From positions 2,294,001 to 2,358,000 of the forward strand of contig NZ_CP149817.1 in the NCBI RefSeq assembly GCF_037935975.1: 64,000 nucleotides of DNA, given 5' to 3'. Source of the DNA: Teredinibacter turnerae. GTDB lineage: Bacteria > Pseudomonadota > Gammaproteobacteria > Pseudomonadales > Cellvibrionaceae. Every line of letters starts with the position of its first letter. The first letter of the stretch is position 1. This document shows, one piece after another, positions 5,467 to 53,771 of this stretch. The notes under the pieces were generated by a model. It saw only the letters and a program-made list of their open reading frames with translations, was not told the origin of the DNA and ran no database searches. The translations under genes were made by a program, and so were the position numbers.

Positions 5467-5469
5467 AAT

Positions 5470-37375: not shown

Positions 37376-37431
37376 CAGCGGGCTTTCTCAGAAAGTGTTT
37401 ACTCTCTAAGGTATAGCACATTGGCGCGGAT

Positions 37432-37878
37432 TTAGTCGGGGCGAACCTCGAGTTTAGCTCTAATAAACTGGCTATGGCTCACGTAAATCAGCTCTGCGAC
37501 CTTGCGAATGATGTATTCCTCGTATTTGTCGAGTGAGCCATCGGCGTAGGCGATAGACCACATGCCGCGAATAAGCAGGTACTTTTCTTCGTCGGTACAG
37601 AATTCATTAACCAGTTGGGTAAACTGGTAGGTGGACGTGGCGTCTGCCTGTTGTGACTCGGCGAGCGTAATGAGCTTTTCGCATTGCTCGTTGGACAGGT
37701 TGAAGCTCTGGGTGAGCACACGTTTTAGTGTGTTTAATTCGGATCTATCGAGCTTTTGGTCGACAATGGCGACTTCGAGGAGAAGAGCAGCGCACGCAAG
37801 GTTGCGCCGCTGCTCATTGGTTTCGTGTGGGGAGCTTTGCAGCTCACTGCGGAAAAAGTCCTTGATGGCACTTAACAT
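37432..37878 (-). CDS. TerB-family protein
   Basis: A 148-residue soluble helical protein of the TerB (tellurite-resistance B) type. It shows two EF-like acidic turns, VAIVDQKLDRSELNTLKRVL and IAYADGSLDKYEEYIIRKVAELIYVSHSQFIRAK, which bind metal in TerB. Isolated TerB proteins without other ter genes are common and should not be read as tellurite resistance. It lies between tal and the FapA group, same strand. Confidence 0.85.
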   Translation of the reverse strand: MLSAIKDFFRSELQSSPHETNEQRRNLACAALLLEVAIVDQKLDRSELNTLKRVLTQSFNLSNEQCEKLITLAESQQADATSTYQFTQLVNEFCTDEEKYLLIRGMWSIAYADGSLDKYEEYIIRKVAELIYVSHSQFIRAKLEVRPD

Positions 37879-37908
37879 TCTAAAGCTCCCCGAAACAGAC
37901 GGCTTGGA

Positions 37909-38841
37909 TTACGCTTTTGACTTCAGGAAGTTTTCCAGGTTGACCTGGTCAGCAACAAAGCCGCGAATGCCCTGAGACAGCTTCTCTGTTGCCATAGCGT
38001 CTTCGTTGTTGGAGAAACGGAAGGCCGCTTCATCTTCGATCAGCTTGGCAATCGCTTCGCCGCTGTTTTCTGGTGAAAGAACACGTTTCAGCTCGCCAGT
38101 GTCTGCTTCCAGCTCACCCAGCAACTGAGGGCTGATGGTCAGACGGTCACAACCGGCCAGTGCTTCAAGTTCACCGGTGTTGCGGAAGCTCGCGCCCATA
38201 ACCACGGTGTTGTAGCCGTGTTGCTTGTAGTAGTTGTAAATGCGGGTTACTGATACTACGCCTGGATCTTCCATCGGCGCATATTCTTTTTGGTCGGTAT
38301 TGGCTTTGTACCAATCCAGAATACGGCCCACGAAAGGAGAGATCAGGAATGCACCAGCGTCGGCACAGGCCGCAGCCTGGCTGAAGCTGAACAGCAGTGT
38401 CAGGTTACAGTTGATGCCTTCTTTCTCCAGCACTTCTGCAGCCCGAATACCTTCCCAGGTGGAAGCCAACTTGATTAAAACGCGCTCTTTGCTGATACCG
38501 GCTTCTTCGTACAAGCCAATCAAGTGCTTGGCCTTTTCAATGCTCGCATTGGTGTTGAAAGACAGGCGGGCATCAACTTCGGTAGAAACGCGGCCGGGAA
38601 CGATTTTCAAAATCTCACAACCAATTGCGACTGCGATTTTGTCGCAAGCGGCTTCGATTGAATCTGTGCTAGACAGGGCATCTTGTACCAGTGGCGCATA
38701 CTGTTCCATCTGAGCTGCTTTGTAGAGCAGTGACGGGTTGGTGGTGGCGTCCAGAGGCTTGTAGCGGGCGATGGCTTCAATGTCACCGGTATCGGCTACA
38801 ACGTCTGAATATTGCTTCAATTGCTCAAGTTTGTTGGTCAT
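37909..38841 (-). CDS. tal: Transaldolase
   Basis: Moves a dihydroxyacetone unit in the non-oxidative pentose phosphate pathway. From the ATG at 38841, which has GGGGAGA in front, there are 310 residues. Signatures are [12 protein letters not shown], the Schiff-base lysine in [41 protein letters not shown] and [12 protein letters not shown]. The frame is open upstream to 38907, but that part lacks similarity. Class I (TalB-type) enzyme by length. Confidence 0.96.
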
Positions 38842-39076
38842 GATTCTCCCCATAACACATGAGATTTGTGAGGCGCACATTATCCGTGTTGCGCGATAGC
38901 GAAACAACCTGAAAATCTGCGATATTTAGTCATTCTGACTATTAGCTTGATTGCTAGTTCAAAAAGCACACGCTGTGGCTGGTGCGGAATGCTACGCGTG
39001 TGCGTTTAATTGCTCAGCATTCCCCGAGATTATAGTTTGGCCGCCATGACAGGCCGATTGCACACCTCGACTCAGA

Positions 39077-40159
39077 TTAGATCTGGTTGACCCTATCGTT
39101 GCGCCCCATGGCGTCGCGCGCGTCGAGCAGCACATCGGCAGTTGCCCCCGGCTGGTTGGCGCGCTCGGTAATATACCGCCGGAAGGTGCGCGCGCCGTAC
39201 TCGCCTGCATACAGACCGAGGATATGCCGCGACATATGATGCAATCTTTGCCCTGCGGCGATCTGTTCGCGACAATACGCCACGAACTGTTCAAGTGCCT
39301 CATCGCGTGTTATCGGCGGTCTGTTGTCTGAACCATAGAGCTCTACGTCTACACCGGCAAGCAGGTAGGGGTTGTGGTAAGCCTCGCGACCAATCATTAC
39401 CCCGTCTAACTGGCTCAGCAGCGCGCAACATTGGCTGAGTGTGGTGATTCCACCATTTATGACGATATCCAGCGCAGTATGTTCCTGTTTCAGCTGCACA
39501 ACCCGTTCATAATTTAGCGGGGGGATGTCGCGGTTTTCTTTCGGGCTCAAGCCCTTTAGCCAGGCTTTGCGCGCATGAACGATAAATCGTTCGCAGCCCG
39601 CTTCAGAAACAACTTTAACAAAACGTTGCAAATCGTTGTATTCGTCCTGATCGTCAACACCAATTCGGTGTTTAACGGTTACCGGGATATCGCATTCTGC
39701 CTGCATCGCACTTACGCACTGTGCCACCAGTTCCGGCTCCGTCATTAAAACCGCGCCGATCTTGCCCTCTTGTACACGGTCGCTCGGGCAGCCGCAGTTC
39801 AGGTTGACTTCGTCGTAACCCCACTGCTGGGCCATAGCCGCGCAACGCGCCAACTCATCCGGGTTGCTGCCGCCTAATTGCAGCGCCAGCGGGTGTTCTT
39901 CGCTGTTAAATTTTAGAAAGCGCTCGACATCACTGTTATTCAGCAGTGCGCCGGTGGTCACCATCTCAGTGTACAGCAGCGCGTTCTTTGTTAGCAGGCG
40001 CCAGAAATAGCGGCAATGACGGTCTGACCACTCCATCATAGGGGCGATGGAAAAGCGAAAGCTCGGGTAGGTGTGTGTGGGTGCAATCGTCACAGAATTT
40101 TGTATACAACGGGAAACAGTGGGCCGCGCATTCTCTACTATAGTCGGTAGTGGTAGCAA
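39077..40159 (-). CDS. dusA: tRNA-dihydrouridine synthase DusA
   Basis: FMN enzyme that reduces U20/U20a in the tRNA D-loop. The family start is FSIAPMMEWSDRHCRYFWRLL; the catalytic cysteine is in NLNCGCPSDRVQ; the FMN-binding GGITT and GVMIGREAYHNP follow. GLSPKENRDIPPL and the C-terminal HMSRHILGLYAGEYGARTFRR are DusA-specific. 360 residues from the first ATG; about 30 residues precede the conserved start, so a GTG at 40093 (338 residues) is also possible. Confidence 0.93.
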   Translation of the reverse strand: MLPLPTIVENARPTVSRCIQNSVTIAPTHTYPSFRFSIAPMMEWSDRHCRYFWRLLTKNALLYTEMVTTGALLNNSDVERFLKFNSEEHPLALQLGGSNPDELARCAAMAQQWGYDEVNLNCGCPSDRVQEGKIGAVLMTEPELVAQCVSAMQAECDIPVTVKHRIGVDDQDEYNDLQRFVKVVSEAGCERFIVHARKAWLKGLSPKENRDIPPLNYERVVQLKQEHTALDIVINGGITTLSQCCALLSQLDGVMIGREAYHNPYLLAGVDVELYGSDNRPPITRDEALEQFVAYCREQIAAGQRLHHMSRHILGLYAGEYGARTFRRYITERANQPGATADVLLDARDAMGRNDRVNQI

Positions 40160-40478
40160 GTCAGTAGTAGCAAGTCGCGCGACTACTTCCGTAGATTGAC
40201 CCCCTAGAAAGATTTAACCATCGGGCTGAACGGATTGATGCAATGCGTGTCGATATCACTGTAGCGACCTGATTTGGTGCGTTGCGTTGAACGTCCAGCG
40301 ACCTAGCAGCAGAATTGTCACGCAGTTGCGGGCGCCATTGACCCAGTTCAATGTATTTGAAGTTCAATTGATACAAGCTATTAGCGCACCAATGATAGAT
40401 TAATTATATAAAAATTCCGGTAGTGGTAGTATTTGCCTATCCCCTGGAGTTTTCCTAATTGTTGAAGGAGTCTTGGTT
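40160..40478. other. Intergenic region upstream of dps
   Basis: Divergent promoter region of dusA and dps. It ends with a good ribosome-binding site (GAAGGAG, 40464-40470) for dps and an AT-rich stretch with TATAAA around 40407. No credible gene is present. Confidence 0.4.
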
Positions 40479-40946
40479 ATGAGTCAGATTGATATTGGTA
40501 TTTCCACCGAAAACCGCGAACAAATTGCTGAAGGCTTGAAGAAGCTGCTCGCGGATTCTTACACGCTTTACCTTCAGACCCACAACTTCCACTGGAATGT
40601 GACTGGCCCGCAGTTCCGCGAGCTGCATTTAATGTTTGAAGAGCACTACACCGAGCTTGCGGTAGCGGTTGATGATATTGCTGAGCGCATTCGCACCCTG
40701 GATGTTGCCGCGCCAGGCACATACAAAACGTTTGCCGAATTGTCGTCAATCGATGAAGTGGAAGGCGTACCTACAGCAGGCGATATGGTTGATATTCTTA
40801 CGCGCGGCCATGAGCAGGTCGTGAAGACTTGCCGTGAAACTCTGGCTATTGCCCAGGAATCGGCTGACGAATCTACCGCATCTCTGGTTTCCGATCGCAT
40901 GCGCATACACGAGAAAACCGCTTGGATGCTGCGCGCTACACGTTAA
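40479..40946 (+). CDS. dps: Dps-family ferritin-like protein
   Basis: DNA-protection/iron-storage protein of the Dps family, 155 residues from the ATG at 40479. The ferroxidase-site pattern is [39 protein letters not shown] (residues about 33-71), with conserved His, Asp and Glu. It lacks the long Lys-rich N-terminal tail of E. coli Dps, so direct DNA binding is uncertain; it is closest to the 'Dps/neutrophil-activating-like' group. Single gene, likely induced by oxidative stress or starvation. Confidence 0.92.
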
Positions 40947-41034
40947 TCCCTCGAAGAACCTGCTAATATAGCGGCTTTGAAATTGTAGAACCCGCCGCCA
41001 ATAGGCGTGGTGATTCGGGAAAGATGTTAACGCG

Positions 41035-41913
41035 ATGATCCCCAGCGAAAAAAAATCGCTGGTTTATGCACTCTTGGCGGTACTCTGTTGGTCGACTGTT
41101 GCAACAGCTTTTAAGCTGGCGCTCGATCAGCAGAGCCGTTTCCAGTTATTAATCTCAGCTAATTTGGTCTCGGTTTTTGTGCTGGCCGCAGTTCTTGCTG
41201 CCCAACAAAAGCTAATACCCGCGCTTACCCAGTGGCGCTCCTGGCGAACCGCGTGCGCCAGCGCTGCCATTAACCCTGCGATTTATTATCTAATCCTGTT
41301 TCAGGCCTATGAACTGCTGCCAGCCCAAGTGGCGCAGCCCATCAACTACACCTGGGCGATAACCCTTAGCCTCGGCGCGCTGGTTGTATTGCGCCAACAT
41401 CTGGTGTGGCGGGATCTGCTCGGAATACTCCTGGGCTACGCCGGTGTGGTGGTCATTTCGGTCGCGGGCTGGCAGGCGGGGTTAAATGTTCCGCTCTTTG
41501 GCGTCGGCCTCGCGCTATTAAGTACGCTCTTGTGGGCCGGCTATTGGCTGTTGAACGCGCGAGACTCCCGCGAGCCGGTACAAGGGCTGCTGCAGAATTT
41601 CCTGCTGGCGCTACCGCTGACCGGTGTCGCCTGGTGGATTTTTGATGGTCACTGGGTCGCAGAGCGCCGCGCGCTTCTGTCTGCGGCTTATGTCGGCGTG
41701 TTTGAGATGGGTATTGCGTTTCTTTTTTGGCTTTTGGCGCTTAAACATGCCAAGCGGGCAAGTTCGGTCGCCGGCTTGATTTTTATATCCCCGTTTTTAT
41801 CACTATTTTTTATTCATACCGTGTTGGGCGAACCTGTTGGCTGGCTCACCATTGGTGGGCTTGGCCTGCTAGTCTTGGGGCTATTACTTAAACAATCCAC
41901 TTCCAAACTTTAA
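41035..41913 (+). CDS. EamA/DMT-family transporter
   Basis: Ten-helix drug/metabolite transporter family member, 292 residues, in two EamA halves: ALLAVLCWSTVATAFKLAL at the start and a second beginning near ALLSTLLWAGYWLLNAR. The paired PINYTWAITLSLGALVVLRQ and GLIFISPFLSLFFIHTVLGEP helices are typical. Likely an exporter of amino acids or metabolites; the substrate is unknown. It is 13 bp before the marC-type gene and likely co-transcribed. Confidence 0.88.
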   Translation: MIPSEKKSLVYALLAVLCWSTVATAFKLALDQQSRFQLLISANLVSVFVLAAVLAAQQKLIPALTQWRSWRTACASAAINPAIYYLILFQAYELLPAQVAQPINYTWAITLSLGALVVLRQHLVWRDLLGILLGYAGVVVISVAGWQAGLNVPLFGVGLALLSTLLWAGYWLLNARDSREPVQGLLQNFLLALPLTGVAWWIFDGHWVAERRALLSAAYVGVFEMGIAFLFWLLALKHAKRASSVAGLIFISPFLSLFFIHTVLGEPVGWLTIGGLGLLVLGLLLKQSTSKL

Positions 41914-41926
41914 AGATTTTGTTTCA

Positions 41927-42610
41927 ATGGAATATTTTATCGTCGCATTTATGACCTTCTTCGCCACCATCGGGCCATTGGATGTTGCTGCTGTGTTTGC
42001 AGCCCTGACTGCCCGCTACAAGCCGCGCGAGGCGCGCAAAATGGCAGTGAAGGGCATCCTTATTTCTATCAGCATCTTATTGTTGTTTGCGCTCTCGGGT
42101 GAATGGCTGCTGTCGCAGCTGGGGATTTCACTCGCAGCTCTGCGCGCTGGTGGTGGTATTTTGTTGTTGCTGATTGGTATCGACATGGTGTTCGCCCGCA
42201 CATCCGGTGGTACCTCCACCACGGCCGACGAAGAAGAAGAAGCGATTACCCGGGAGGATATTTCCGTATTCCCGCTGGCCACACCGCTTATTGCAGGGCC
42301 GGGTTCAATGGGGGCATCCATTCTGTTGATGGCAAATGCAGATGGGCATCCGTGGCAGCAGGGTGCAGTGTTGTTGGCGCTAGCGGCGATACTGTTGCTT
42401 ACACTGGTGATGTTGCTGGCTGCGGCGCAGATTCAGCGCATTCTCGGGGTTACCGGTATGCACGTGATTACCCGCGTATTCGGCGTGCTGTTAACAGCGC
42501 TGGCGGTGCAGTTTATTTTTGATGGGGTTGTTTCGAGTGGCGTGTTTTCTGGCAAAGCAGCAACGGAAACCGCAGAAATGGTGATACCTTTGCCGCATCA
42601 GTCAGGATAA
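41927..42610 (+). CDS. MarC-family integral membrane protein
   Basis: A 227-residue protein with about six membrane helices. It follows the MarC/UPF0056 pattern: FATIGPLDVAAVFAALTARY at the start, LRAGGGILLLLIGIDMVF in the middle, FPLATPLIAGPGSMGASILL and RVFGVLLTALAVQFIFDGV at the end. The family has no established transport substrate; older links to multidrug resistance were not upheld. It follows the EamA gene closely and precedes a terminator. Confidence 0.9.
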   Translation: MEYFIVAFMTFFATIGPLDVAAVFAALTARYKPREARKMAVKGILISISILLLFALSGEWLLSQLGISLAALRAGGGILLLLIGIDMVFARTSGGTSTTADEEEEAITREDISVFPLATPLIAGPGSMGASILLMANADGHPWQQGAVLLALAAILLLTLVMLLAAAQIQRILGVTGMHVITRVFGVLLTALAVQFIFDGVVSSGVFSGKAATETAEMVIPLPHQSG

Positions 42611-42712
42611 ATATTTTTAATATTCCTGGAACTTAACCTGGGGGAGTGGCTCCAAGTTACCGTAAGCAATGTGTTTTACTTCCTTAACTCCCCGAATTTT
42701 ACTTCTTCGATC

Positions 42713-42743
42713 GCGGTGCTCCTTGGAGTCACCGCTTTTTTTT
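42713..42743. terminator. Rho-independent terminator after marC-type gene
   Basis: GCGGTG pairs with CACCGC, with an inner TCC/GGA pairing, followed by eight T residues. It stops the EamA-MarC transcript and lies just before the convergent nitroreductase stop codon. Confidence 0.88.
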
Positions 42744-42748
42744 GTCTG

Positions 42749-43327
42749 TTAGTCGGCTTCTTTTAAGTAGCGAATGCGGGAATCCAAGTCTGGGCGGGGG
42801 CGTTCCGTTGGCGCGTTCTTGGCGGTGCCGATATAAATATAGCCCGCGATCGACTCAGCTTTGGTGAGCCCCAGCTTCTTGTTGAATTTTTTATCGTAGG
42901 CGTACCACTCAGTGAGCCACTGGGAGGCGAAGCCCATGGCGGTTGCGGCCAAAAGCATGTTTTGACAGACGGCTCCGGCGGTTAACACCTGTTCCTGCTC
43001 AGGTACTTTTTCGTTTACGACCGGCGAGCACACCACCGCGATAACCAGTGGCGCTCGCGTGAAGCGGTTGCGCTCAAACCCCAGCAGCTTCGAACTGGCG
43101 TCGGGGTTGCGTTTGGCAAACACCTTGGCCAGTTGCTCACCGTAGCTCGCGCGGGCATCACCGCGAAACACGATAAAACGCCAGGGGCCAAGCTTCTTGT
43201 GGTCCGGTACGCGGTGCGCGCAGCGCAATAAGGTTTCCAGTTGCTCGTCGCTGGGCCCGGGCTCGGTCATTTCGGCGGCAGTTACCGAACGGCGAGTAAG
43301 CAGAAGATTAATAAAGTCGTTATTCAT
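42749..43327 (-). CDS. Nitroreductase family protein (YdjA-like)
   Basis: FMN-dependent nitroreductase-fold protein of 192 residues from the ATG at 43327. FINLLLTRRSVTAAEMTEPGP and RVPDHKKLGPWRFIVFRGDAR match the compact YdjA-type branch; the FMN-binding end is IAGYIYIGTAKNAPTERPRPDL. In-frame codons extend to 43402 but lack similarity. Natural substrate unknown. Confidence 0.9.
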   Translation of the reverse strand: MNNDFINLLLTRRSVTAAEMTEPGPSDEQLETLLRCAHRVPDHKKLGPWRFIVFRGDARASYGEQLAKVFAKRNPDASSKLLGFERNRFTRAPLVIAVVCSPVVNEKVPEQEQVLTAGAVCQNMLLAATAMGFASQWLTEWYAYDKKFNKKLGLTKAESIAGYIYIGTAKNAPTERPRPDLDSRIRYLKEAD

Positions 43328-43584
43328 AGCTCGATCCGAATACATCCGTGAGGCTAAAGATGGGTCGTGGAAGGCGAAATCGCATTCTACCAAAAAGGGC
43401 ACCGAAATTGAGCACTCGTCGACAGCTTGTTAAACGATTGTCTGGCTCACTGCCGGAAGCCCCGTTTGTACGGGGCGTTGCGGCTACATCAATTAATGAA
43501 CGCGCGTACTTTTTCAGCGATTTACCCTGATTTCGTCTGGGGAGTATAATTGTCCCCCTTTTTTATCAGCCATTAGAGAGTCGT

Positions 43585-45087
43585 ATGACTGTAAGAACCC
43601 GAATTGCACCATCACCCACCGGCGACCCGCACGTAGGTACGGCCTACATTGCACTGTTCAACCTATGTTTTGCGCGCAAGCACAACGGCAAATTTGTGTT
43701 GCGAATTGAAGATACTGACCAGACGCGCTCCACCCCGGAGTCTGAGCAGGCAATTCTTGACTCTCTGCGCTGGTTGGGTCTGGATTGGGACGAAGGCCCG
43801 GACGTTGGTGGCGAATTTGGCCCTTACCGGCAGAGTGAACGCAAGGATATTTACGGGCAGTATGTCGATGAGCTGTTGGCAAAGGGGCTCGCGTTTAAAT
43901 GTTACCGAACCACGGAAGAGCTGGACGCGCTACGTGCAGAACGCAAAGAGGCGGGTATCCATAGTGCACTCAAACCATCGGATCTGCGCCTGAGCGAAGA
44001 CGAGCAAAATGCGCGCGAAGCACAGGGTATGCCCTATGTTGTGCGTATGGTGGTTCCAGAAGAAGCGGGCACCTGCGCTGTGAACGACATGCTGCGCGGT
44101 ACCATGGACCTGGACTGGAGCCTGGTTGACGCTCAGATATTGCTAAAGTCCGACGGTATGCCCACCTATCACCTGGCCAACGTGGTGGACGATCACCTGA
44201 TGGGTATTACCCACGTTATTCGCGGCGAAGAGTGGATTAACTCCGCCCCCAAACATCAGCTTTTATATGAATACTTTGGCTGGGATATGCCCGTGCTTTG
44301 CCACTTGCCGCTATTGCGCAACCCGGATAAAACCAAGCTGAGCAAGCGTAAAAACCCAACCAGTATTTTGTATTACAAGCGCATGGGCTTTTTAGCTGAA
44401 GCCCTGTTGAATTACCTGGGCCGTATGGGTTGGTCCATGCCTGATGAGCGCGAAAAGTTCAGTCTGAACGATATGCTGGAGCAATTCGACATTTCCCGTG
44501 TTTCCCTTGGCGGGCCAATTTTCGATGTGGCCAAGCTCAAATGGCTCAACGGCCTGTGGATTCGCGAAGATCACGACGACGCCCAACTGGCACAGCGCCT
44601 GACTCAATGGCTGCTAAATGAAGAAAACCTGCTGGCGGTTATTCCGCACGTTAAACAACGTATGGAAACCCTGAGCGATTTTGCACCGCTGGTGAGCTTT
44701 TTAGCGAGTGGCCAATTGCCGTTGAACGAAGACAGCTTCAGCCCTAACAAACTCGATCTGGAGACTCAGAAAAAGGTACTTCAGTTTGCTTTGTGGCGAA
44801 TGGAAGCACTGCGCGCCTGGGAGCGAGACACCATCTTCGCCGAGCTTAAATCCCTCGCGGATGGCCTGAGTATAAAAATGAAGGATTTCCTCGCGCCGGT
44901 GTTTATCGCCGTTTCTGGCTCTACTGCGAGTTTCTCGGTCATGGATGCGATGGTACTGCTTGGGCCGGATATGAGCCGCGCGCGTTTGCGTGAGGCCGTT
45001 GATGTGCTTGGGGGTGCGGGTAAAAAAGTGCTGAAGCGCTACGAGAAGGAATATGCGGAGTTGAGTGCCGAACCTAAAGTAGAGTAG
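43585..45087 (+). CDS. gltX: Glutamyl-tRNA synthetase
   Basis: Class I aminoacyl-tRNA synthetase charging tRNA-Glu, 500 residues. The HIGH-type motif is [19 protein letters not shown] and the KMSKS-type motif is [31 protein letters not shown] and [20 protein letters not shown] are GltX-specific. The C-terminal anticodon-binding helical domain follows. Standard length, no anomalies. Confidence 0.97.
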
Positions 45088-45205
45088 GGGCGGGCGCCAA
45101 TTGAGGGCTTTGCACTCAAGTACAACGCCCTGTTTAAAACGAGGAGGCCATCCCGGGCCTCCCTGGGTTTCAGCCGACTTATCCCTCGGCTGTATCCCGT
45201 GCTTT

Positions 45206-45559
45206 TCAGGCGACTTTGGCGCCGCGATACACCTTTTTCTGCCTGGCTAAACGCTCCTGAACCGCCTTCTCAAAGGTGCTGATGTCACCGACGCCTGGAA
45301 TAGGCTGCAGCGCCCACAAATCCAGATTAATCTCCAACAACGCACGCTTCTGCTCTTTGTTCAGTTGCTCGCGGAACAGCTCAAGTTGCTGACGAACCTT
45401 CGGCTGGCGGCTGGCCATCGCAAACTTGATCAGCCGTAGCTTTTCGCGCAACCCCTGAAATACGCGAAAACGCTTGTGATCGTGCAATTCAACAACCATT
45501 GCCAAGCGAACCAATGCGTTTTCTGCGCGCTCTGTAAATACAATATGTTCAATCAGCAT
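45206..45559 (-). CDS. Conserved-looking small protein, unknown function
   Basis: A 117-residue protein from the ATG at 45559, which has a good GGGAGA site in front. It is basic and helical: LIEHIVFTERAENALVRLAMVVELHDHKRFRVFQ, then a Gln/Glu/Arg-rich stretch and LDLWALQPIPGVGDISTFEKAVQERLARQKKVYRGAKVA. No signal peptide or membrane segment. I cannot name the family. The frame continues upstream to 45682, but the good ribosome-binding site decides the start. Confidence 0.7.
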   Translation of the reverse strand: MLIEHIVFTERAENALVRLAMVVELHDHKRFRVFQGLREKLRLIKFAMASRQPKVRQQLELFREQLNKEQKRALLEINLDLWALQPIPGVGDISTFEKAVQERLARQKKVYRGAKVA

Positions 45560-45711
45560 ACAAATCTCCCAACATCCCTGTGTACGTGTAAAGTCGTTCA
45601 AATAGTGGTGCGCCGTGCAAGGCGCCAGACCACCTCGATTGAGAGAAAGTATGCTAAAACAACATCCAGCGCTCCACGCCAAAGTAGCGGGCTAAAAAGT
45701 GAATATTCCTG

Positions 45712-45739
45712 TTGACACAATATAAAACCTTGATAGAAT
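45712..45739 (+). promoter_or_regulatory. Sigma-70 promoter of tRNA-Ala
   Basis: A perfect -35 box TTGACA (45712-45717) and a -10 box TAGAAT (45734-45739) are separated by 16 bp and followed by a GC-rich discriminator (GCGCAGCC), the arrangement typical of stable-RNA promoters under stringent control. Confidence 0.88.
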
Positions 45740-45803
45740 GCGCAGCCTTGTCGCCAAGCACTCAACCCGCAGGGTGTGATTACTAAAAAAAGCGAAGTAT
45801 TAC

Positions 45804-45879
45804 GGGGCCTTAGCTCAGCTGGGAGAGCGCAACACTGGCAGTGTTGAGGTCAGCGGTTCGATCCCGCTAGGCTCCACCA
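45804..45879 (+). tRNA. tRNA-Ala (anticodon GGC)
   Basis: All parts of a 76-base tRNA can be folded: acceptor GGGGCCT/AGGCTCC with the alanine identity pair G3:U70, D arm GCTC-AGCTGGGA-GAGC, anticodon arm CAACA-CTGGCAG-TGTTG with GGC at positions 34-36, variable loop AGGTC, T arm AGCGG-TTCGATC-CCGCT, and encoded ACCA. A strong promoter precedes it and a terminator follows it. It is the evident parent of the degenerate units downstream. Confidence 0.97.
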
Positions 45880-45885
45880 AAACGG

Positions 45886-45913
45886 AAAGCCCGCTTATGT
45901 AGCGGGCTTTTTT
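45886..45913 (+). terminator. Terminator of tRNA-Ala
   Basis: AAAGCCCGCT and AGCGGGCTTTTTT form a strong hairpin around a TATGT loop with a T-run. The same terminator is repeated in each downstream unit. Confidence 0.93.
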
Positions 45914-45980
45914 GTGCCTGAAATTCGGCTATTTGCAGGTGTAATAGTCCCGTTCGTTGTACTGTTCGAAACGCAGAAGC

Positions 45981-46095
45981 AGCTCAGCTGGGAGAGCGCA
46001 ACACTGGCGGTGTTGAGGCGGCCGGCGTTCCGGGCAGCGTCGATCCCGCTAGGCTCCACCAAAACGAAAAGCCCGCTTATGTAGCGGGCTTTTTT
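45981..46095 (+). ncRNA. tRNA-Ala-like unit 1 of 5 (pseudo-tRNA plus terminator)
   Basis: Closest in spacer to the true tRNA gene: the sequence following it is almost identical to the one following tRNA-Ala. D arm intact (GCTCAGCTGGGAGAGC). Acceptor 5' strand replaced by AGAAGCA. No promoter of its own is evident. The hairpin core, encoded ACCA and terminator are intact. Whether it is expressed is unknown. Confidence 0.6.
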
Positions 46096-46162
46096 GTGCC
46101 TGAAATTCGGCTATTTGCAGGTGTAATAGTCCCGTTCGTTGTACTGTTCGAAACGCAAAAGC

Positions 46163-46277
46163 AGCTCAGCTGGAAGAGCGCAACACTGGCGGTGTTGAGG
46201 CGGCCGGCGCTCCGGGCTGCGTCGATCCCGCTAGGCTCCACCAAAACGAAAAGCCTGCTGATGTAGCGGGCTTTTTT
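46163..46277 (+). ncRNA. tRNA-Ala-like unit 2 of 5
   Basis: Core as in unit 1, with GGCGCTCC in the inserted arm, GGGCTGCG instead of GGGCAGCG, and a CTGCTGATG change in the terminator loop side that leaves one G-U or mismatch in the stem. D arm GCTCAGCTGGAAGAGC. Followed by the first spacer type in a more diverged form. Confidence 0.55.
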
Positions 46278-46342
46278 GTGTCTGTAATTCGGCTATTCGC
46301 GGGTGTAATAGCCCCGTTCGGCACTCTTGGAAACGCAAAAGC

Positions 46343-46457
46343 AGCTCAGCGGGGAGAGCGCAACACTGGCGGTGTTGAGGCGGCCGGCGCTCCGGGCAGC
46401 GTCGATCCCGCTAGGCTCCACCAAAACGAAAAGCCTGCTCATGTAGCGGGCTTTTTT
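46343..46457 (+). ncRNA. tRNA-Ala-like unit 3 of 5
   Basis: Core as in unit 1 with GGCGCTCC. D arm GCTCAGCGGGGAGAGC. The spacer that follows switches to a second type containing TTTAACGACAAATAG and CTGAGAGCTTG, shared with the next unit. Confidence 0.55.
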
Positions 46458-46522
46458 GTGTCTGAAATTTAACGACAAATAGTTCAGTACGCCCGATTGT
46501 CATCACCTGAGAGCTTGCGAGC

Positions 46523-46637
46523 CGCTCAGCAGGGAGAGCGCAACACTGGCGGTGTTGAGGCGGCCGGCGCTCCGGGCAGCGTCGATCCCGCTAGGCTCCA
46601 CCAAAACGAAAAGCCCGCTCATGCAGCGGGCTTTTTT
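46523..46637 (+). ncRNA. tRNA-Ala-like unit 4 of 5
   Basis: Core as in unit 3. Starts GAGCCGCTCAGCAGGGAGAG. Terminator loop reads CATGC. Followed by the second spacer type. Confidence 0.55.
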
Positions 46638-46702
46638 GTGCCTGAAGTTTAACGACAAATAGTACTAGACGCCTATTTTTCATCCCCTGAGAGCTTGAGA
46701 GC

Positions 46703-46817
46703 CGCTAAGCTGGTAGAGCGCAACACTGGCGGTGTTGAGGCGGCCGGCGTTCCGGGCAGCGTCGATCCCGCTAGGCTCCACCAAAACGAAAAGCCTGCTC
46801 ATGTAGCGGGCTTTTTT
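46703..46817 (+). ncRNA. tRNA-Ala-like unit 5 of 5
   Basis: Last unit, with GGCGTTCC as in unit 1 and a D-arm-like CGCTAAGCTGGTAGAGC, which no longer pairs fully. The similarity ends within about 20 bp after its terminator, where unrelated AT-richer DNA begins. Confidence 0.55.
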
Positions 46818-47689
46818 GTGCCCGCAATTTAAGTCCAGATAGATTGCCGTTTCTGGCTCACGCAACTTGTGTGTTATGAGATACCAAAAGTTGATTGATC
46901 TGCCATGCGAACCACGATGGTTCGACAAGCTTTAATCTCCTCTCTTAATCTTTTGGCCTTCGTAGGTAAAATAGGACGTGCATACATGGATGCCAGATGC
47001 GGTGGGCGTGTGGGTTTAATCTCAGTCTGCAACGAGACGCCAGTCTTATATTGGCCTATTCAGAAATGCGAGCGCAGAGCACGCGGTACGCTTGAAAATA
47101 AGATGATCTACTTCGTGTCAATTATCCCAATCAACGCCCCTGAGAAAAAACTCAGAGAATGGCTCGTAATGGAAATAGGGGGTCTCTGTTCAAAATTAGT
47201 GAGTATTTGCGGTTGGCAACTCATGGAAATTTAACGAAAGCGAAATTTAGTGTGTTAAATAGCGCCTCACTCGTTGCGAGGCATGAATGTAAATGATGAG
47301 AGCTCTCTCAGTGGAGAGACAAACGGCACTAGGAATAAAGGCAGATAAATAAGTGGTTTTTAAATCGTCTGAGATACATTTTTTTGATGTCCTACGGCAG
47401 CCTGGAATATTAACTACGCTTGCTCTGGCGATCAGCAGTGCTTCAGAAAAAGTGCACTTGTGTAAAGCTAGCGAATTAGCACACAGTCAACCTCTAAATC
47501 AGTAATCAACCGCTAAAAAGGAAACCAACCACATGGGTACTGTAAAAAGGAGTGTTACGGTCTACATATGGGTGACCCGGTAGCACGTTTCTTTTTAAAA
47601 TTACGTTACCTGGGGCAGTGGGTTGAAATGTGGACCCCGTATGATGTTCATCTATACGCGCTTCAAATTAAGTCAGCCAAGGGTTTTTC
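46818..47689. other. Gene-poor stretch after the tRNA-like array
   Basis: No gene can be supported. A rightward frame of 109 codons (46905-47234) has no recognisable similarity, an unlikely Cys/Arg-rich composition and no ribosome-binding site. The base composition is more AT-rich than in the flanking housekeeping regions. The end of the stretch should hold the promoter of the deacetylase gene. Confidence 0.45.
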
Positions 47690-48637
47690 ATGAGCAATCG
47701 ATTGGTGTATTCAGAGGGGTATGATTTCGCCGTGGCGGGGCTTGACAAGCTTCATCCCTTTGATGCAAAAAAAATCAGTAAAGCGTGGAATATACTCAAC
47801 GATGAAATCCCTGATTTGGTTGAATACCACCTTTCCCCAAAGGAATTGGCGGCAGACGAACTCTTAAAGCTTATCCATACGAGTGAATATTTAAAATCAC
47901 TTAGTCAATCGACAGCCATAGCTAAGGTGGTTGAGCTTGGGTTGCTCCGATTTTTCCCTTCAGGCATTCTTGCTAGAAGTTTGCTCGACCCGATTCGGTT
48001 GGCGACAAGCGGAACTTTGCTTGCCTCGCAGTATGCAGTTAAAAACCAAGCGATGGTGATGAACTTTGGTGGAGGCTATCATCATGCGTTTTCGAATCGT
48101 GGCGAGGGGTTTTGTTTTTTTGCTGATGCAGCGCTGGCGATAAAGTCATCTAGAATCAGTGGTCTACTGCAACAAAATGACAATGTCGGAATGATCGACT
48201 TGGACGCGCATCGAGGTAATGGGTTTGAGTCATTTTTTACTGATGATTCGTCTGTATCAATATTTGACATGTATAATTTCCAGGTGTATCCCGGCCTGCA
48301 CCCTGGTGATGTTGATGACTACCCTTATATGGTTCCGCTGCAAAGCGGAATGTCAGGAGCAAGCTACCTAAGAGCACTCAAGGAAGAATTGCCAGCGTTT
48401 CTTGAAACACTGCAGGATGCGAAGCTTGTGTTCTATAACGCTGGAACCGATGTTCTAGCGGGTGATCGGTTGGGGAGGTTAAATCTATCATTTCAGCATG
48501 TTGTGGAGCGTGATCGCTACGTACTTCAACAGCTAAAAGCTTTGGCTGTGCCTGTGGTTGTGTTAACTAGTGGCGGATACACCAGCGAGTCATACAAGCT
48601 GGTTGCTGAATGCGCCAAAATATTAGTGAATATGTAA
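47690..48637 (+). CDS. Histone-deacetylase-family protein (class IV, HDAC11-like)
   Basis: Zinc-dependent deacetylase fold, 315 residues. The N-terminal HPFDAKKISKAWNIL is the class IV start. NFGGGYHHAFSNRGEGFC carries the paired active-site His (131, 132); the zinc ligands are D172 and H174 in MIDLDAHRGNG and D254 in YNAGTDVLAGD; the catalytic-tyrosine loop is TSGGYTS (Y297). In GGGYHH the residue before the His pair is Tyr instead of the usual Trp or similar. Bacterial members act on acyl-lysines, polyamines or are uncharacterised; the substrate here is unknown. It lies alone in an accessory-looking region. Confidence 0.9.
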   Translation: MSNRLVYSEGYDFAVAGLDKLHPFDAKKISKAWNILNDEIPDLVEYHLSPKELAADELLKLIHTSEYLKSLSQSTAIAKVVELGLLRFFPSGILARSLLDPIRLATSGTLLASQYAVKNQAMVMNFGGGYHHAFSNRGEGFCFFADAALAIKSSRISGLLQQNDNVGMIDLDAHRGNGFESFFTDDSSVSIFDMYNFQVYPGLHPGDVDDYPYMVPLQSGMSGASYLRALKEELPAFLETLQDAKLVFYNAGTDVLAGDRLGRLNLSFQHVVERDRYVLQQLKALAVPVVVLTSGGYTSESYKLVAECAKILVNM

Positions 48638-48892
48638 AGAATTTAGGCTTCAAAAACGTGATTGAATAAATAATAACGCGCCTTAATAAATACCATTCGC
48701 CAAGGCGCTGATTCGAATACCTGGGACGGTAGGTGATGCAGGTGATGCAATGCACAAGGGCATGCACTGAAGAGCCACATGCATTTGCTTTAAGTGCCAG
48801 CCCGGCTACCAGGTTAAGTTCGGATCGTTATAGAAATGAATGAAAATAATATTTGGAGGTTTTTCTGAAATTGCAGGTATGCAGGGGGGCAG

Positions 48893-49276
48893 GTGTTTCG
48901 CACGTATCTCATATTGTCTATTTTAGTGGTTTCAGCGTGTTCGTCACATGGCACATTGAACAAAGCAGAGATTGCATTTGGTAAGCCGAGAATACATCTG
49001 TTTCTTTATGGGGAAAATAAAGAGAATTCTCGGAAATTTATCGAAGCGTTCAACGATGCTGGATTTGAAGTCGTGTTAAGGGCCGGAGCTCTACCAGTGG
49101 GAGACAACAAGAGTTTTATAATACATAGCCCAAACATTAATCCAAATCACTTTGTTGAAATCGAAAATATACTTCAAGTTCTAAAATCCGTAGGTGTAGA
49201 GGATTTGGTTCTGTATCAATATCAGCGGGGGAAGCACTACTATACCGCGAAGAATGTGGGTGTTTATCTTCTTTAA
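48893..49276 (+). CDS. Small predicted lipoprotein, unknown function
   Basis: A 127-residue protein that starts at a GTG preceded by an AGGGGGG site. The signal peptide FRTYLILSILVVSACSS ends in a lipobox (VVSAC, Cys16), so it should be lipid-anchored. The remainder alternates strand and helix (IHLFLYGENKENSRKFIEAFNDAGFEVVLRAG, then SVGVEDLVLYQYQRGKHYYT), suggesting a small alpha/beta domain. No family recognised. Separated by 250 bp from the deacetylase gene. Confidence 0.65.
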   Translation: MFRTYLILSILVVSACSSHGTLNKAEIAFGKPRIHLFLYGENKENSRKFIEAFNDAGFEVVLRAGALPVGDNKSFIIHSPNINPNHFVEIENILQVLKSVGVEDLVLYQYQRGKHYYTAKNVGVYLL

Positions 49277-49576
49277 AGCGGTAAATGTCAGGCAAACACG
49301 GCACGCCCTAAAAGGGCATCCGCAGAGCAAACCAGGGAGTAAATTGTGAGAGTCACTGCGAGCAAACCGTACACAACCCAAGCTTATGGTGGGAAGTAGG
49401 ATTCTAGGGTGGAGAAATAAATAATAAAAAATGCTCTCCTCATAGTACTCACAGAGAGTAGGCACACAAAGAGCCGTTACTATTCTATAAAATACTGAGG
49501 TGGCTTATTTAATTATCAAATAAACTATCCATAGCCACACCAATAAATAAATCATCAAAACAGCATAATACCCAAA
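49277..49576. other. Intergenic region between convergent lipoprotein and CHAT genes
   Basis: No gene supported; AT-rich towards the CHAT gene end. No clear intrinsic terminator hairpin with T-run was found. Confidence 0.4.
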
Positions 49577-52435
49577 TCAGCGGGGCTCAGGCGCTTGCGC
49601 CCGCTGTTCTTGTTGTTCTAACAGAACCTCCCAAGCGCTTAAACCGCCCTTAACACCCAAGTGTTCGTTTAAACCCAAGCCCTCAGCCAATCGAGCCAAC
49701 GCCTCCAGAACCTGAGCCAGTTGTATCGGCTTTGCCAAACGGTAAGCGGAAAGCCAAGCGTTTAACGCTTCAGAGCCTTGTTCGTTCTGTAAATGAATAT
49801 GCCCCATATTAAACAGCACTGTACACAATCCAGCGACATCCCCGATCTCCTGCCTTATCGTCAGCGATTGCTTCAAGTAGCTCAAGGCCGCCTCGTAATC
49901 GCCTTTCGCATCGTAGATCTGCGAGATATTGTTGAGGGTGGTGCCTTCCCCCGAGCGATCCCCGATCTCCTGCAGAATCGCCAGCGATTGCTTCAAGTAG
50001 CTCAAGGCCGTCTCGTAATCGCCCAAATGGAGATATTGCTTGCCAGTTTGTCCTAAAGCTTCTCCGCGAATGTGGGCGTTTTCCGCTTCGCAAATCGGCG
50101 GCAACCACTCTTCCAGTAAAGTACGATAAAGCCCGGCATTATTCAGCCGCCCCACAATGGTATCCATGGCAAAGCGATGTGCTAGTTCTTTTTGCTTTGC
50201 CCTCATCATGGCTCGGTGAAGGCTTTGAGCCATGGATAAGTTGCTGCGCTCGTTTTTGAACAAGTAACCCAGGTATTCTGCTGCTAACAGCCAACTGGCG
50301 TCCTCTATTGGAGTACCTAGGTGGTCGTTAACCGCCTTCACTACTAACTCAGGGCAGTGGTATTCATTGGCGAGCCAGTGGGGATTGTGGCTTTGTTCTA
50401 CGAGGGAGAAGTTGACTAATTCCGCCAACAGAGATTCGGGGTCAGTGAGGTCTGCGCCCAGTTTAATCACGCCTTCTATGGGCACGGGTTCCTCAAAGAC
50501 TTGCATCCGCTGCAATAATTGCCGCTGTTCGTCACTGCGTTGGTGGAGTAATTGCTGTAGCGCCATATCCGTTTGCACGTCACTTTCGGCTTGTGACAAG
50601 GCTTGGAGAAACTGGGTTTCCTCCTCTAGGTTCATACTCTTTGCTGCGGCGCTAAAGTATTGTAAGCCGCGGCCGTTGCCATTGAGTACGCGGTAGATTT
50701 TTCTCAGTTTGCTGTAATCACTGGTGGGCTGCCCCTGCAGCACGAACAGTTGCAGAAAGTCTCCGTAGCTCAGGTGGTCCAGAGGCCAATGGTGGTCTTC
50801 TGGCCATTCGGGCAGCAACCAACGGGAGGTGGCGAGTAAAACAACGCCTTTGTCCGCTAAGCGCTGGGCAGCGCGGATAAAAGCTTCGACAGTTTTATCC
50901 TGCAAAGCGCGTGATTGCTCGTTTTGCAGGCTCTCCAAATTATCTAACAGTATCAACAGTTTTTCGGTGCGTTGGGCACACAGCGCGTCCAATAACTTAA
51001 AAGACAATTGTTCTGGGTCTTTGACTACTTCACAGACGTCTTTAAACCAATCTCTATTCTCTTTGTTCAGCTTTAACCTGAGATCCAGGTAAAAGTCGTC
51101 CCAGTGTTGTCCTTCCTTCGCCGACCAAGCCACTACTTGCCAACCGGCCTGTTGGCACTCTAAGGCGAGTTTGCCCGCCAAGGCGGTTTTGCCCTGTCCA
51201 CCGGGGCCGGTAAACAATAACTGGCTCCGTTTTCCCTGTCGTAACTGACCCATAAATTTGCGTAATTCCCGACGGCGACCACGAAATTTCTCTGGTAGCG
51301 GTACGCCTTCCAGCTTGGTTTGGAGTCGGTACTGGTGGGGTGGCTGGGCCTCAAATTGCCAGTGAATTAAGGGAGCCTCCAAGTGTGCACAATAGAGAGT
51401 GGGCAAACACCATTGGCCCAAACTGAGTTCGGCCAGTTCGCTTTTGTCTCCATCCTTCCCGATACTGTTTTTAATGGGTGTAATGATGGCTTTGCGGGCG
51501 GCTTGCAGGGCAACATCGACTCTTTCGCGGAGGGCAATGGCATCACAGAAGGCCCGAGCAAAGAGAATGCCGGCGCGATCCATCACCGATTCACGCATAC
51601 CGATAACAAAGGGAAGGTGTGCGGCCATTAAGCGCCGGGCCAAACCATTGTTCAGGGCATCTGATGCTGCTTTGCCCGATTCACAAGCGGAAAGTACCAC
51701 ACCGCGAACAGCGCAGCCGTGAAAAGCTGAAGCCAATGTCTCTTCTTCTATCGCTTCACTAAAGCCCCAGTCATCTTCAAAGATAAAACAACCCCGACTG
51801 CCTTGGTCATCAATCGCCGATTGAATAAACTTGCCATGACCCGAGAGAAACACCAGGTGCGGTTTAAAAGTTTTCAATTGTTGTTGCAAGGTCTCAAAGC
51901 GGCCATCATTAGGAGCTTCGAACAGCACTTGACCCGAGGCAATAGCGGGCATCAACGCTTCCAAGACGGCTTCTTGCTCTTCTTCAACGGCTAGGCGGCC
52001 ACGTTCTGGGTTCAGGTCATCTGGCAGAGAGGTAAACAACAATACCCGCAGGGGGCCCGCGTTAACTTCCTCGGGTTCGGTATCTGCTTGTGGTACATGT
52101 CGGCTGAACGTAAACGCGGTTTCTCTGCCTAGGAACCCATGTTGCGGGTGGTGAAGGATTTCCCAAGGCAGATTTTGAATAGCTGGATCTGCACTTTTAA
52201 CAACAATGGGTAACACTTTGTTACCTGCGTATTCAAGCGATTGTTGAAAGCCTTCGGCAGAATTAATCGCCTGCCACAGCTGACTACCAATGGCTTTTAA
52301 GCGATCGTCGGTCACCAACTCGCAGTGGGCATAGCTCAAGGCCAATTCGTGGGCCGCTCGCTTCAGCTGCGGGTACTGTTGGAGCAAATCATCGGGCGGC
52401 TCGATGACAAACGCAGTTTTGCAAACTTGTGTCAT
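49577..52435 (-). CDS. CHAT protease - STAND NTPase - TPR protein, likely defence or cell-death effector
   Basis: A 952-residue protein with three parts. The N-terminal CHAT (caspase-like) domain carries the catalytic dyad H200 in VFLSGHGKF and C251 in VLSACESGKAA. The central NTPase of the STAND/NB-ARC class has Walker A GPGGQGKTA (410-418), Walker B LLILLDNLES (D498), and the ATSRWLLPEWP sensor-like segment. The C-terminus holds about three TPR repeats (about 790-900, 40-residue period, SYLKQSL-I-QEIGD). This is the layout of STAND sensors in which ligand recognition by repeats triggers oligomerisation and an effector protease. It overlaps the zinc-ribbon gene by four bases (ATGA), the last of a three-gene leftward operon. 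No transposase or integrase is adjacent. Confidence 0.9.
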   Translation of the reverse strand: MTQVCKTAFVIEPPDDLLQQYPQLKRAAHELALSYAHCELVTDDRLKAIGSQLWQAINSAEGFQQSLEYAGNKVLPIVVKSADPAIQNLPWEILHHPQHGFLGRETAFTFSRHVPQADTEPEEVNAGPLRVLLFTSLPDDLNPERGRLAVEEEQEAVLEALMPAIASGQVLFEAPNDGRFETLQQQLKTFKPHLVFLSGHGKFIQSAIDDQGSRGCFIFEDDWGFSEAIEEETLASAFHGCAVRGVVLSACESGKAASDALNNGLARRLMAAHLPFVIGMRESVMDRAGILFARAFCDAIALRERVDVALQAARKAIITPIKNSIGKDGDKSELAELSLGQWCLPTLYCAHLEAPLIHWQFEAQPPHQYRLQTKLEGVPLPEKFRGRRRELRKFMGQLRQGKRSQLLFTGPGGQGKTALAGKLALECQQAGWQVVAWSAKEGQHWDDFYLDLRLKLNKENRDWFKDVCEVVKDPEQLSFKLLDALCAQRTEKLLILLDNLESLQNEQSRALQDKTVEAFIRAAQRLADKGVVLLATSRWLLPEWPEDHHWPLDHLSYGDFLQLFVLQGQPTSDYSKLRKIYRVLNGNGRGLQYFSAAAKSMNLEEETQFLQALSQAESDVQTDMALQQLLHQRSDEQRQLLQRMQVFEEPVPIEGVIKLGADLTDPESLLAELVNFSLVEQSHNPHWLANEYHCPELVVKAVNDHLGTPIEDASWLLAAEYLGYLFKNERSNLSMAQSLHRAMMRAKQKELAHRFAMDTIVGRLNNAGLYRTLLEEWLPPICEAENAHIRGEALGQTGKQYLHLGDYETALSYLKQSLAILQEIGDRSGEGTTLNNISQIYDAKGDYEAALSYLKQSLTIRQEIGDVAGLCTVLFNMGHIHLQNEQGSEALNAWLSAYRLAKPIQLAQVLEALARLAEGLGLNEHLGVKGGLSAWEVLLEQQEQRAQAPEPR
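49841..50023 (-). repeat. Near-identical 120-bp-period DNA repeat coding for two TPR units
   Basis: The 63 bases at 49841-49903 recur at 49961-50023 with five differences, exactly 120 bp (40 codons) apart. Both code for the A/B-helix junction of consecutive TPRs. Identity at DNA level is higher than protein constraint alone would ask for, pointing to a recent duplication or gene conversion in the putative sensor region. Confidence 0.85.
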
Positions 52436-52689
52436 GACAACTCTTCTTCCGTGGGTTCAGAGGTCTCAATAACCTCCGGCAGATTTAGGGTTTCTCTCTC
52501 CAAGTCGATATCGCTACCTCTGAGTACTTCGCTTTTGCTGTCCCGGTAGCGATTAAAATCATAGACACCGCGTTTGCTGCAATAGGGGCAGTCGATGATT
52601 ACCCTGGGATTACCGCTTATTTCCCGCGTGAGCTGATAGGTTTTACCGCAGTTCCAACACTTGAATGTGAGCCTCATTCTATTCTTCAT
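52432..52689 (-). CDS. Small zinc-ribbon protein of the CHAT module
   Basis: An 85-residue protein whose first half is a zinc ribbon: C11-x2-C14 in KCWNCGKTYQL and C34-x2-C37 in DCPYCSKRG, with a beta-strand spacer. The second half is acidic and low in hydrophobics (EVIETSEPTEEELS). It lies 12 bp after the 2-TM gene and overlaps the CHAT gene by four bases, so the three proteins are almost certainly made together. It may be an adaptor that binds nucleic acid or its operon partners; this is inference. Confidence 0.8.
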   Translation of the reverse strand: MKNRMRLTFKCWNCGKTYQLTREISGNPRVIIDCPYCSKRGVYDFNRYRDSKSEVLRGSDIDLERETLNLPEVIETSEPTEEELS

Positions 52690-52701
52690 TTTCCTATTCC
52701 T

Positions 52702-53163
52702 TTAGAAAATAGAGACAGTGGCAGCAATAATACCGAAAAAGAAAAAACCGCAGGCAATAAGTAAGCGACAATATTTGTATTGAGCAGAGGACTGGAAAAA
52801 AGCTTCGATGCTTAGTGCCTGATCGGCTTCAGTACTGTGCTCGATATAGATAACATTTCGATCAACGTTGTATTTCTTCGGTAGTACGGCCCAGAGAGTC
52901 ATAAGCAATGCAACAAACCAGCAGAAAAATGCGATAGCAACTTCTATACCCGTGACAACGGCTTGCTTGCCTTGTACAAGCTTCAGGGCGGTTGCGTATA
53001 AACCGGGGACGGATAACTCAATGGTAATCAACAATTTTCCGAGTTCATCCATTCGTGTAACTTGAGCGGCAATTTCTTCATCAAATTTTTGCCGGAGTAT
53101 GTCGTCGGTGGGCGAGGGCGGGCAGGTCGATAAAACAAGAGGGCTGGGCTCTTCCGATTCCAT
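52702..53163 (-). CDS. Two-transmembrane protein of the CHAT module
   Basis: A 153-residue protein, first gene of the operon. A charged N-terminal region (about 1-43, Pro/Ser-rich, then FDEEIAAQVTRMDELGKLL) is followed by an amphipathic stretch, TM helix 1 (about 69-94, VVTGIEVAIAFFCWFVALLM), a 36-residue loop and TM helix 2 (about 131-153, LLIACGFFFFGIIAATVSIF) that ends the protein. No enzymatic motif is seen. In a CHAT operon a small membrane protein is a plausible proteolytic substrate or pore-forming effector, by analogy with caspase-like/gasdermin pairs; this remains a hypothesis. Confidence 0.75.
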   Translation of the reverse strand: MESEEPSPLVLSTCPPSPTDDILRQKFDEEIAAQVTRMDELGKLLITIELSVPGLYATALKLVQGKQAVVTGIEVAIAFFCWFVALLMTLWAVLPKKYNVDRNVIYIEHSTEADQALSIEAFFQSSAQYKYCRLLIACGFFFFGIIAATVSIF

Positions 53164-53771
53164 TATTGAATTCCTGACGTAAACTAGTCGAGCAAGTGGG
53201 AGATGATAAAAATTTACAATGCTGGTCTCGGTTGCGGTTTAGACTGCTTACTGCAAAATGTAAGCCTGCTTTGGGCTAACAAAGAAATCTCTGAATGAAA
53301 ATATCTCATGGCTGCAATGGAGGGTAAAGCGGCTTTTAGATAAAGCTGTCCAGATTGACGCCTAATTAAACCTCCGCTCGTTCTGCCAGTCCAAGCACAT
53401 CATAAACTTCAACTCATAGGCCTCTGCACGTGCTCTCCAGCTTTGTGTGACTCATAAGCAGTTGGATCGCTCATCGGCTCTTTGTTCGTATGTAGATCGG
53501 GGTGACTTTTTTGCTAATTTTTGGCTGCGTGCCCTAGTCATTGGGGGATAAATCGACTGGGCTGAAACATGGTTTGATGCTGCGAGCGAGGAGATAAAGA
53601 GGACATCACCGATGACATTCACCGATGAAATATGCCGATGAGAAAAAAAGAGCAAAAAAATACGGATGTGCGCTGATGAGTCACAGTCGTTTTTTCAAGT
53701 CTCAGCAAATCCGACACAAACCTGAGACAGGCACTTAAGCGGAGTTATATAATTAATTACCCCATTAAAAG
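53164..53771. other. Gene-free region upstream of the CHAT module
   Basis: Should carry the promoter of the three-gene module. A short repeated motif (CACCGATGA, CACCGATGA, GCCGATGAG) occurs around 53610-53642. A 67-codon leftward frame at 53452-53655 lacks support. Confidence 0.4.

Follow-up and report, generated by a model that had tools for sequence, protein, structure and literature searches.

Tandem repeats beside tRNA genes are easily written off as debris, and the array that follows the tRNA-Ala(GGC) gene of Teredinibacter turnerae raises the question of whether its repeated core is kept by selection or is a passive product of recombination. The window analysed here, a stretch of 64,000 nucleotides, is part of a single-contig 5.35-Mb genome that we label G000. 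Two well-separated genomes have units with both a fixed and a changed part, and copy number and the side of the tRNA on which the units lie vary among six genomes. These fixed and changed parts and variable copies make selection versus drift at a tRNA locus directly testable.

An array of tRNA-Ala-derived units downstream of tRNA-Ala(GGC) is real. ARAGORN detects this gene as the sole tRNA of the window, TRF reports 5.4 copies of a period of 180 over 45858-46829 (score 1278), and direct repeats define five units over 45981-46820 with spacings of 182, 180, 180 and 180. All three agree with an earlier note on this DNA, which described an intact tRNA-Ala(GGC) and five head-to-tail units of about 180 bp; that note ended the array at 46817, and the last terminator region actually reaches 46820. 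Each unit comprises an 81-nt core and then a 37-nt stretch with a terminator-like hairpin (Table 1). All five cores contain tRNA positions 9-76, including the 3′ acceptor strand and CCA, and all five carry A37G in the anticodon loop (CTGGCGG versus CTGGCAG in the tRNA), a 16-nt GC-rich block, CGGCCGGCGYTCCGGG, in place of one T of the variable region, and a 2-nt deletion ('GT') in the T-arm. The 5′ acceptor strand, GGGGCCTT, is missing from all five, and no unit has an acceptor stem with both strands, GGGGCCT being absent before every core. The altered T-arm and variable region, the anticodon-loop change and the lost 5′ acceptor strand were thus described correctly in the earlier note; its nearly identical core is right overall, but not for the D-arms and terminator loops, which differ among units.

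Table 1. The tRNA-Ala(GGC) gene and the units of the array, in window coordinates.
Feature	Position	Strand	Evidence
Sigma-70-like promoter of tRNA-Ala, TTGACA-16-TAGAAT, 11 of 12	45712..45739	+	promoter scan
Intact tRNA-Ala(GGC), parent of the units	45804..45879	+	ARAGORN
Terminator-like hairpin region of the tRNA	45880..45916	+	sequence
Spacer A, before unit 1, 64 nt	45917..45980	+	sequence
Unit 1, modified core	45981..46061	+	direct repeats, sequence
Unit 1, terminator-like region	46062..46098	+	sequence
Spacer A, second copy, before unit 2, 1/64 sites different	46099..46162	+	sequence, site comparison
Unit 2, modified core	46163..46243	+	direct repeats, sequence
Unit 2, terminator-like region	46244..46280	+	sequence
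Spacer A′ (diverged A), before unit 3	46281..46342	+	sequence, site comparison
Unit 3, modified core	46343..46423	+	direct repeats, sequence
Unit 3, terminator-like region	46424..46460	+	sequence
Spacer B, before unit 4, common to G003, 2/62 sites different	46461..46522	+	sequence, G003 comparison
Unit 4, modified core	46523..46603	+	direct repeats, sequence
Unit 4, terminator-like region	46604..46640	+	sequence
Spacer B′ (diverged B), before unit 5, 12/62 sites differ from B	46641..46702	+	sequence, site comparison
Unit 5, modified core	46703..46783	+	direct repeats, sequence
Unit 5, terminator-like region	46784..46820	+	sequence

The spacers had been called two unrelated types, a description that holds for their inner part and fails at their ends. 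Over the full length, A′ and B align better than shuffled sequences (p 0.0005), but without the first 9 and last 3 nt the alignment is no longer exceptional (p 0.28); since it is confined to the ends, we rejected A′ and B as diverged homologues. Among 58 genomes searched for relatives of either spacer, strong matches were limited to the array itself and, for B, to the sister genome G003, all others having E values of at least 0.026.

The tRNA gene lies downstream of an ORF at 43585-45087 that is presumably gltX; between the two is a small ORF on the minus strand. The only promoter-like site in a scan of 45600-46900 is the one before tRNA-Ala, and none was found in the spacers. Every downstream unit is preceded by a terminator-like hairpin. 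Of the six hairpins in the array, a terminator scan recovered three, all called on the minus strand, and it listed 4 sites in the region where 2.0 were expected; the intact terminator of the earlier note is therefore borne out by the hairpin and T-run read from the sequence, and not by the scan. The block 3′ of the array (46841-53549), which differs from that of G003 (about 3.7 kb there), contains a gene of the histone-deacetylase family and one for a CHAT-ATPase-TPR protein, which may be a defence gene. Elsewhere in the window there is a TPP riboswitch at 5456-5555 on the minus strand.

How widely the modified core occurs was assessed in 144 genomes of the family. A core pattern allowing up to 3 mismatches matched in four of them, and a covariance model, R1, found 13 units in six at 70.6-92.7 bits (intact tRNA-Ala, at most 63.6): five in G000, three in G162, two in G020 and one each in G003, G005 and G034. 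Because R1 was trained on the 12 distinct units, their high scores arise by construction; the outcome that counts is that no further locus among the 144 genomes scores high. Every one of the six carriers has the modified core next to tRNA-Ala(GGC), in 1-5 copies that lie either upstream or downstream. Genome contigs were also scanned for the exact pattern, in a set that may omit records near the window, and two carriers were named: Teredinibacter sp. ISS155 (G162) and Cellvibrionaceae bacterium 1162T.S.0a.05 (G020), both shipworm symbionts. G003 is presumably T. turnerae T7901. Pattern matches in Bacteroidales and Planctomycetes were rejected as relatives, there being no tRNA in either locus.

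Arrangement differs among the carriers. The units of G000 and G003 lie downstream of the tRNA and lack the 5′ acceptor strand; those of G005, G020, G034 and G162 lie upstream, lack the 3′ acceptor and, with the exception of the first G162 unit, keep GGGGCC. G020 also has, downstream, a 24-nt fragment that begins at position 9 and shares its D-loop with unit 4, which hints that the downstream form, too, is old. A gltX tree (28 rows, without G034) requires 3 changes for five carriers, all within a 14-row fork (support 93/87), and an rpoB tree (24 rows) requires 4 changes for all six, at least 3 of them forced by well-supported branches. The rpoB carriers fall within one larger clade (support 96/95), in which they make up 6 of the 16 sampled rows, the other 10 being without the element. 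G034 was placed by rpoB (PF00562), an RsgA-like marker being unusable for it: this was found in 11 of 24 genomes, G034 not among them, and 8 hits had 42-46% identity, so that they are probably paralogues. Such a pattern could reflect one gain and several losses, or transfer. We favour gain and loss, since the element sits beside tRNA-Ala(GGC) in every carrier; the distribution is most simply read as a single old origin followed by repeated loss.

Partial copies of tRNA-Ala were surveyed in 78 non-duplicate loci of 1.6-15 kb with an intact tRNA-Ala copy, some of them from other families. Extra copies on the same strand were found in the six carriers, in five genomes of the genus g5, in a tRNA cluster (G043) and in an island (G155); one locus, L091, gave a weak opposite-strand match. 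In the g5 loci (L022, L112-L115) the intact gene is preceded, 371-666 bp upstream, by another tRNA-Ala copy, whose T-loop is interrupted by hairpins of differing sequence in which pairing is kept, as judged by eye. A tRNA-type promoter was seen by eye ahead of most of these five copies, and matches to Rfam TwoAYGGAY (RF01731) lie nearby in all three g5 loci scanned (L022, L112 and L115). Two carriers have additional repeats. G005 has a 158-bp × 2.5 array downstream of tRNA-Ala (L052:9061-9459), in which the unit combines a T-arm, a GC-rich insert and an inverted acceptor-end copy, and G034 has two 192-bp upstream units (L003:207-596) with the 5′ 20 nt of the tRNA and a 3′ hairpin, another hairpin sequence replacing the anticodon arm.

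The sister genome G003 is 95.1% identical to G000 over 36891-46105. Its only unit has a changed insert and an interrupted T-run in the terminator; in this genome the element appears to be in decay. Over the spacer, D-arm, anticodon arm and 3′ part, this unit differs from unit 4 at 2/126 sites; against this, its insert differs from that of unit 5 by 3 substitutions and one inserted base, and from that of unit 4 by 4 substitutions and one inserted base (excess in the insert over the other parts, p 0.003). The G003 spacer differs from B at 2/62 sites, and B′ differs from B within G000 at 12/62. As B is nearer to G003 than to B′, the B/B′ duplication would predate the split of the two genomes, and the G003 array would have contracted. 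The earlier note had proposed that a lack of transcripts in any condition and of copies in related strains, or decay of the core there, would argue for neutral duplication: half of that test is answered by the copies in relatives (6/144 genomes, including that of the window), and G003, with one unit, an altered insert and a broken T-run, bears on the decay.

Within G000, the core has changed less than the spacers. Units 4 and 5 differ at 12/62 spacer sites and at 1/63 core sites outside the D-arm (p 0.001), and units 2 and 3 at 8/62 and 1/63 (p 0.017); the D-arms differ at 3/19 and 2/19 sites, respectively. Units 1 and 2 show no contrast (spacer 1/64, core 2/63), and the unit pairs are not independent of one another. 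To this extent the alternative drawn in the earlier note, that the core is under selection or homogenised by conversion, is right; inside G000 the two are inseparable, as conversion there could produce the contrast. Comparison with G005 is more informative. The insert is identical at 16/16 sites between G000 and G005, genomes that differ at 114/180 (63%) four-fold sites of gltX, an identity with a P of 1e-7 under neutral, vertical descent at one gltX four-fold rate. The D-arm differs at 6/19 sites (unit 3) or 5/19 (unit 1), whereas the 42 columns after it are alike except for a single inserted base (p 0.003, unit 3). Conversion within one genome cannot fix an insert between two; barring transfer of the piece, this shifts the balance towards selection, and the core has likely been under selection between the G000 and G005 lineages. 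The inserts of G020 and G162 have 14/16 sites in common, with a P of 6.6e-5 that borrows its per-site identity of 0.38 from the G000 comparisons. Overall, the interpretation in the earlier note is partly supported.

ARAGORN and Rfam recover only the intact gene, and we rejected the units as tRNA genes; the Rfam tRNA model (RF00005) matches none of the five at E≤10 and gives the intact gene 61.8 bits, so 'tRNA-like', the earlier description, finds no support in structure. In the minimum-energy fold of the G000 units, the anticodon-arm side and the 3′ side pair with each other to form a single long hairpin, followed by the terminator; this fold is not a cloverleaf, and the same run gave no cloverleaf for the intact tRNA either. 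Fold z-scores of the five G000 units with their terminators range from -2.6 to -3.9, and unit 4 with its spacer scores -1.4. This long hairpin is not common to G005. Upstream units of relatives scored -0.2 (G005), -0.4 (G162), -1.1 and -1.8 (G020) and -2.8 (G034), and, G034 excepted, are predicted to fold little better than shuffled sequences.

The 6-pair anticodon stem is invariant across all 12 distinct units. For a hairpin in the insert, the covariance analysis that the earlier note suggested gave no excess over shuffles: the sequence alignment has 1 double-change pair, equalled by 225 of 500 shuffles, and in the alignment of units the covariation score is below the shuffle mean. On the sequence alignment, slid partners pair less than the stem itself (34-53% versus 89.8%), and hand alignment of the insert tips places double changes at 2/4 stem pairs; shuffling the four inserts that have a 4-bp stem yields such stems in 17-66% of cases. 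With no excess over shuffles and stems common in shuffled inserts, we do not rely on covariation of this hairpin. An integron attC site was also considered and rejected, no R boxes being recognised by eye.

Our preferred reading, held tentatively, is that an old element derived from tRNA-Ala was duplicated in tandem next to tRNA-Ala(GGC) and that its core was kept by selection, perhaps as an untranslated RNA. The array is lineage-restricted, dynamic and probably old. The element would already have been present in the ancestor of the carriers, and its copy number would grow and shrink through unequal recombination. Selection would have kept the core because the core is made as a short untranslated RNA, an RNA and a function that we infer from sequence. 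Upstream units could be transcribed from the tRNA promoter, and downstream units by read-through or from unmapped promoters. Such an RNA might act as a decoy or sponge that resembles the anticodon arm of tRNA-Ala and is needed in dosage, in keeping with altered copies, and not intact ones, having multiplied. Should the units be transcribed, theirs would be an unusual case of a tRNA-derived RNA encoded in several copies. We consider it rather unlikely, though worth stating, that the units define a novel family of untranslated RNAs that derive from tRNA-Ala and are multicopy in shipworm-symbiont relatives, that selection keeps their core of anticodon arm plus insert, and that copies amplified for dosage act in trans as a mimic, for example as a decoy for a factor or toxin that targets tRNA-Ala.

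A purely recombinational by-product is nearly as likely as a selected element. It is quite conceivable that a copy of tRNA-Ala gained the GC-rich block, lost its ends and was multiplied by slippage and unequal crossing-over, with conversion keeping functionless copies alike. Variation of copy number and side among the six genomes would follow, and the G003 unit resembles a hybrid of units 4 and 5 left by contraction, its spacer being nearest to B and its insert and terminator nearest to unit 5. Palindromic tRNA-Ala fragments in G005, G034 and the genus g5 also mark the locus as prone to rearrangement. Decay in G003, insert-hairpin covariation no higher than in shuffles and the weak folds of upstream units all count against selection. 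Neutral copying does less well with the fixed insert, which conversion confined to one genome could not hold identical in G000 and G005, and with the D-arm, which has diverged in the very units whose insert is identical. Transfer of a piece between these two lineages may also explain the identity.

It is improbable that the units are attachment-site remnants, derived from the far-end tRNA copies of islands that integrated at tRNA-Ala(GGC), even though this gene is an island integration site in the family. In G155 the tRNA is directly followed by a phage-integrase-family gene, and positions 8-76 recur unchanged 12.5 kb away, together with what by eye is a terminator-like hairpin. G016 repeats these positions at 98.6% identity some 15.7 kb away; in G023 positions 27-76 recur about 11 kb away, and an integrase gene lies close to that far end. 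The G155 island (L122:1596-14074), which closes with its copy of positions 8-76, contains the integrase and restriction/defence-like genes recognised by eye. The array units begin at position 9-10, near the G155 and G016 boundary, and G000 (46841-53549) and G003 have different gene blocks directly 3′ of the array. Yet the units differ from the tRNA by the insert, A37G and the T-arm deletion, whereas the copies in G155, G016 and G023 do not, and the upstream units of four genomes share the modified core, an outcome that one integration would not yield. Exact-word searches found no further exact tRNA end in the window, and of the four ORFs of at least 110 aa between the array and 53549, the three scanned against Pfam include no integrase, the fourth being 127 aa long. 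An island copy is possible as the origin of the first downstream copy, not of the array. A cis-acting role, in which the core, as part of a leader or trailer, would influence the processing or level of tRNA-Ala through its structure, is very improbable: four genomes (G005, G020, G034 and G162) have units upstream of the tRNA, behind a TTGACA-type promoter seen by eye before the first unit in G005, G020 and G162, but the G000 and G003 units lie beyond the tRNA's terminator-like hairpin, and the model search lists no unit in 138 of 144 family genomes.

Under our preferred reading of a selected, tandemly duplicated element, the nearest known architecture is that of the 178-bp repeats at E. coli tyrV/tyrT (rttR / rtT RNA, tpr). 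As at that locus, tandem repeats of about 180 bp lie directly downstream of a tRNA and start inside it; the tyrV array of E. coli MG1655, measured again here, has a period of 178 and 3.1 copies and overlaps the last 19 nt of the tRNA. In contrast to tyrV/tyrT, the array described here involves another tRNA, copies 68 tRNA positions rather than 19, and has a modified core and a terminator-like hairpin in each unit. The rtT RNA, which we take to be RF00391, was not among Rfam hits up to E=10 in a search run without a positive control. We found no paper on this array among open-licence papers, judged mostly from listings. A table of Salmonella indels lists rtT RNA as a '175 bp VNTR' (PMC2658671). 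The pseudo-tRNA tRNA-Other of Bacillus cereus is likewise a tRNA-like element not used in translation, maybe part of a regulatory RNA, at an island locus; it is a single element with reported transcripts and deletion effects, whereas our array is known from sequence (PMC3399842). At the tandem ssrA islands of Dehalococcoides, too, the end of a tRNA-like gene is directly repeated several times downstream of the complete gene; those repeats are 20 bp long, mark island boundaries no more than 100 kb from ssrA and are accompanied by a serine recombinase (PMC3146451); here the copies are altered, 81 nt long and 180 bp apart, and no recombinase was found. What is new at tRNA-Ala(GGC) is thus a variation on known tRNA-flanking tandem arrays.
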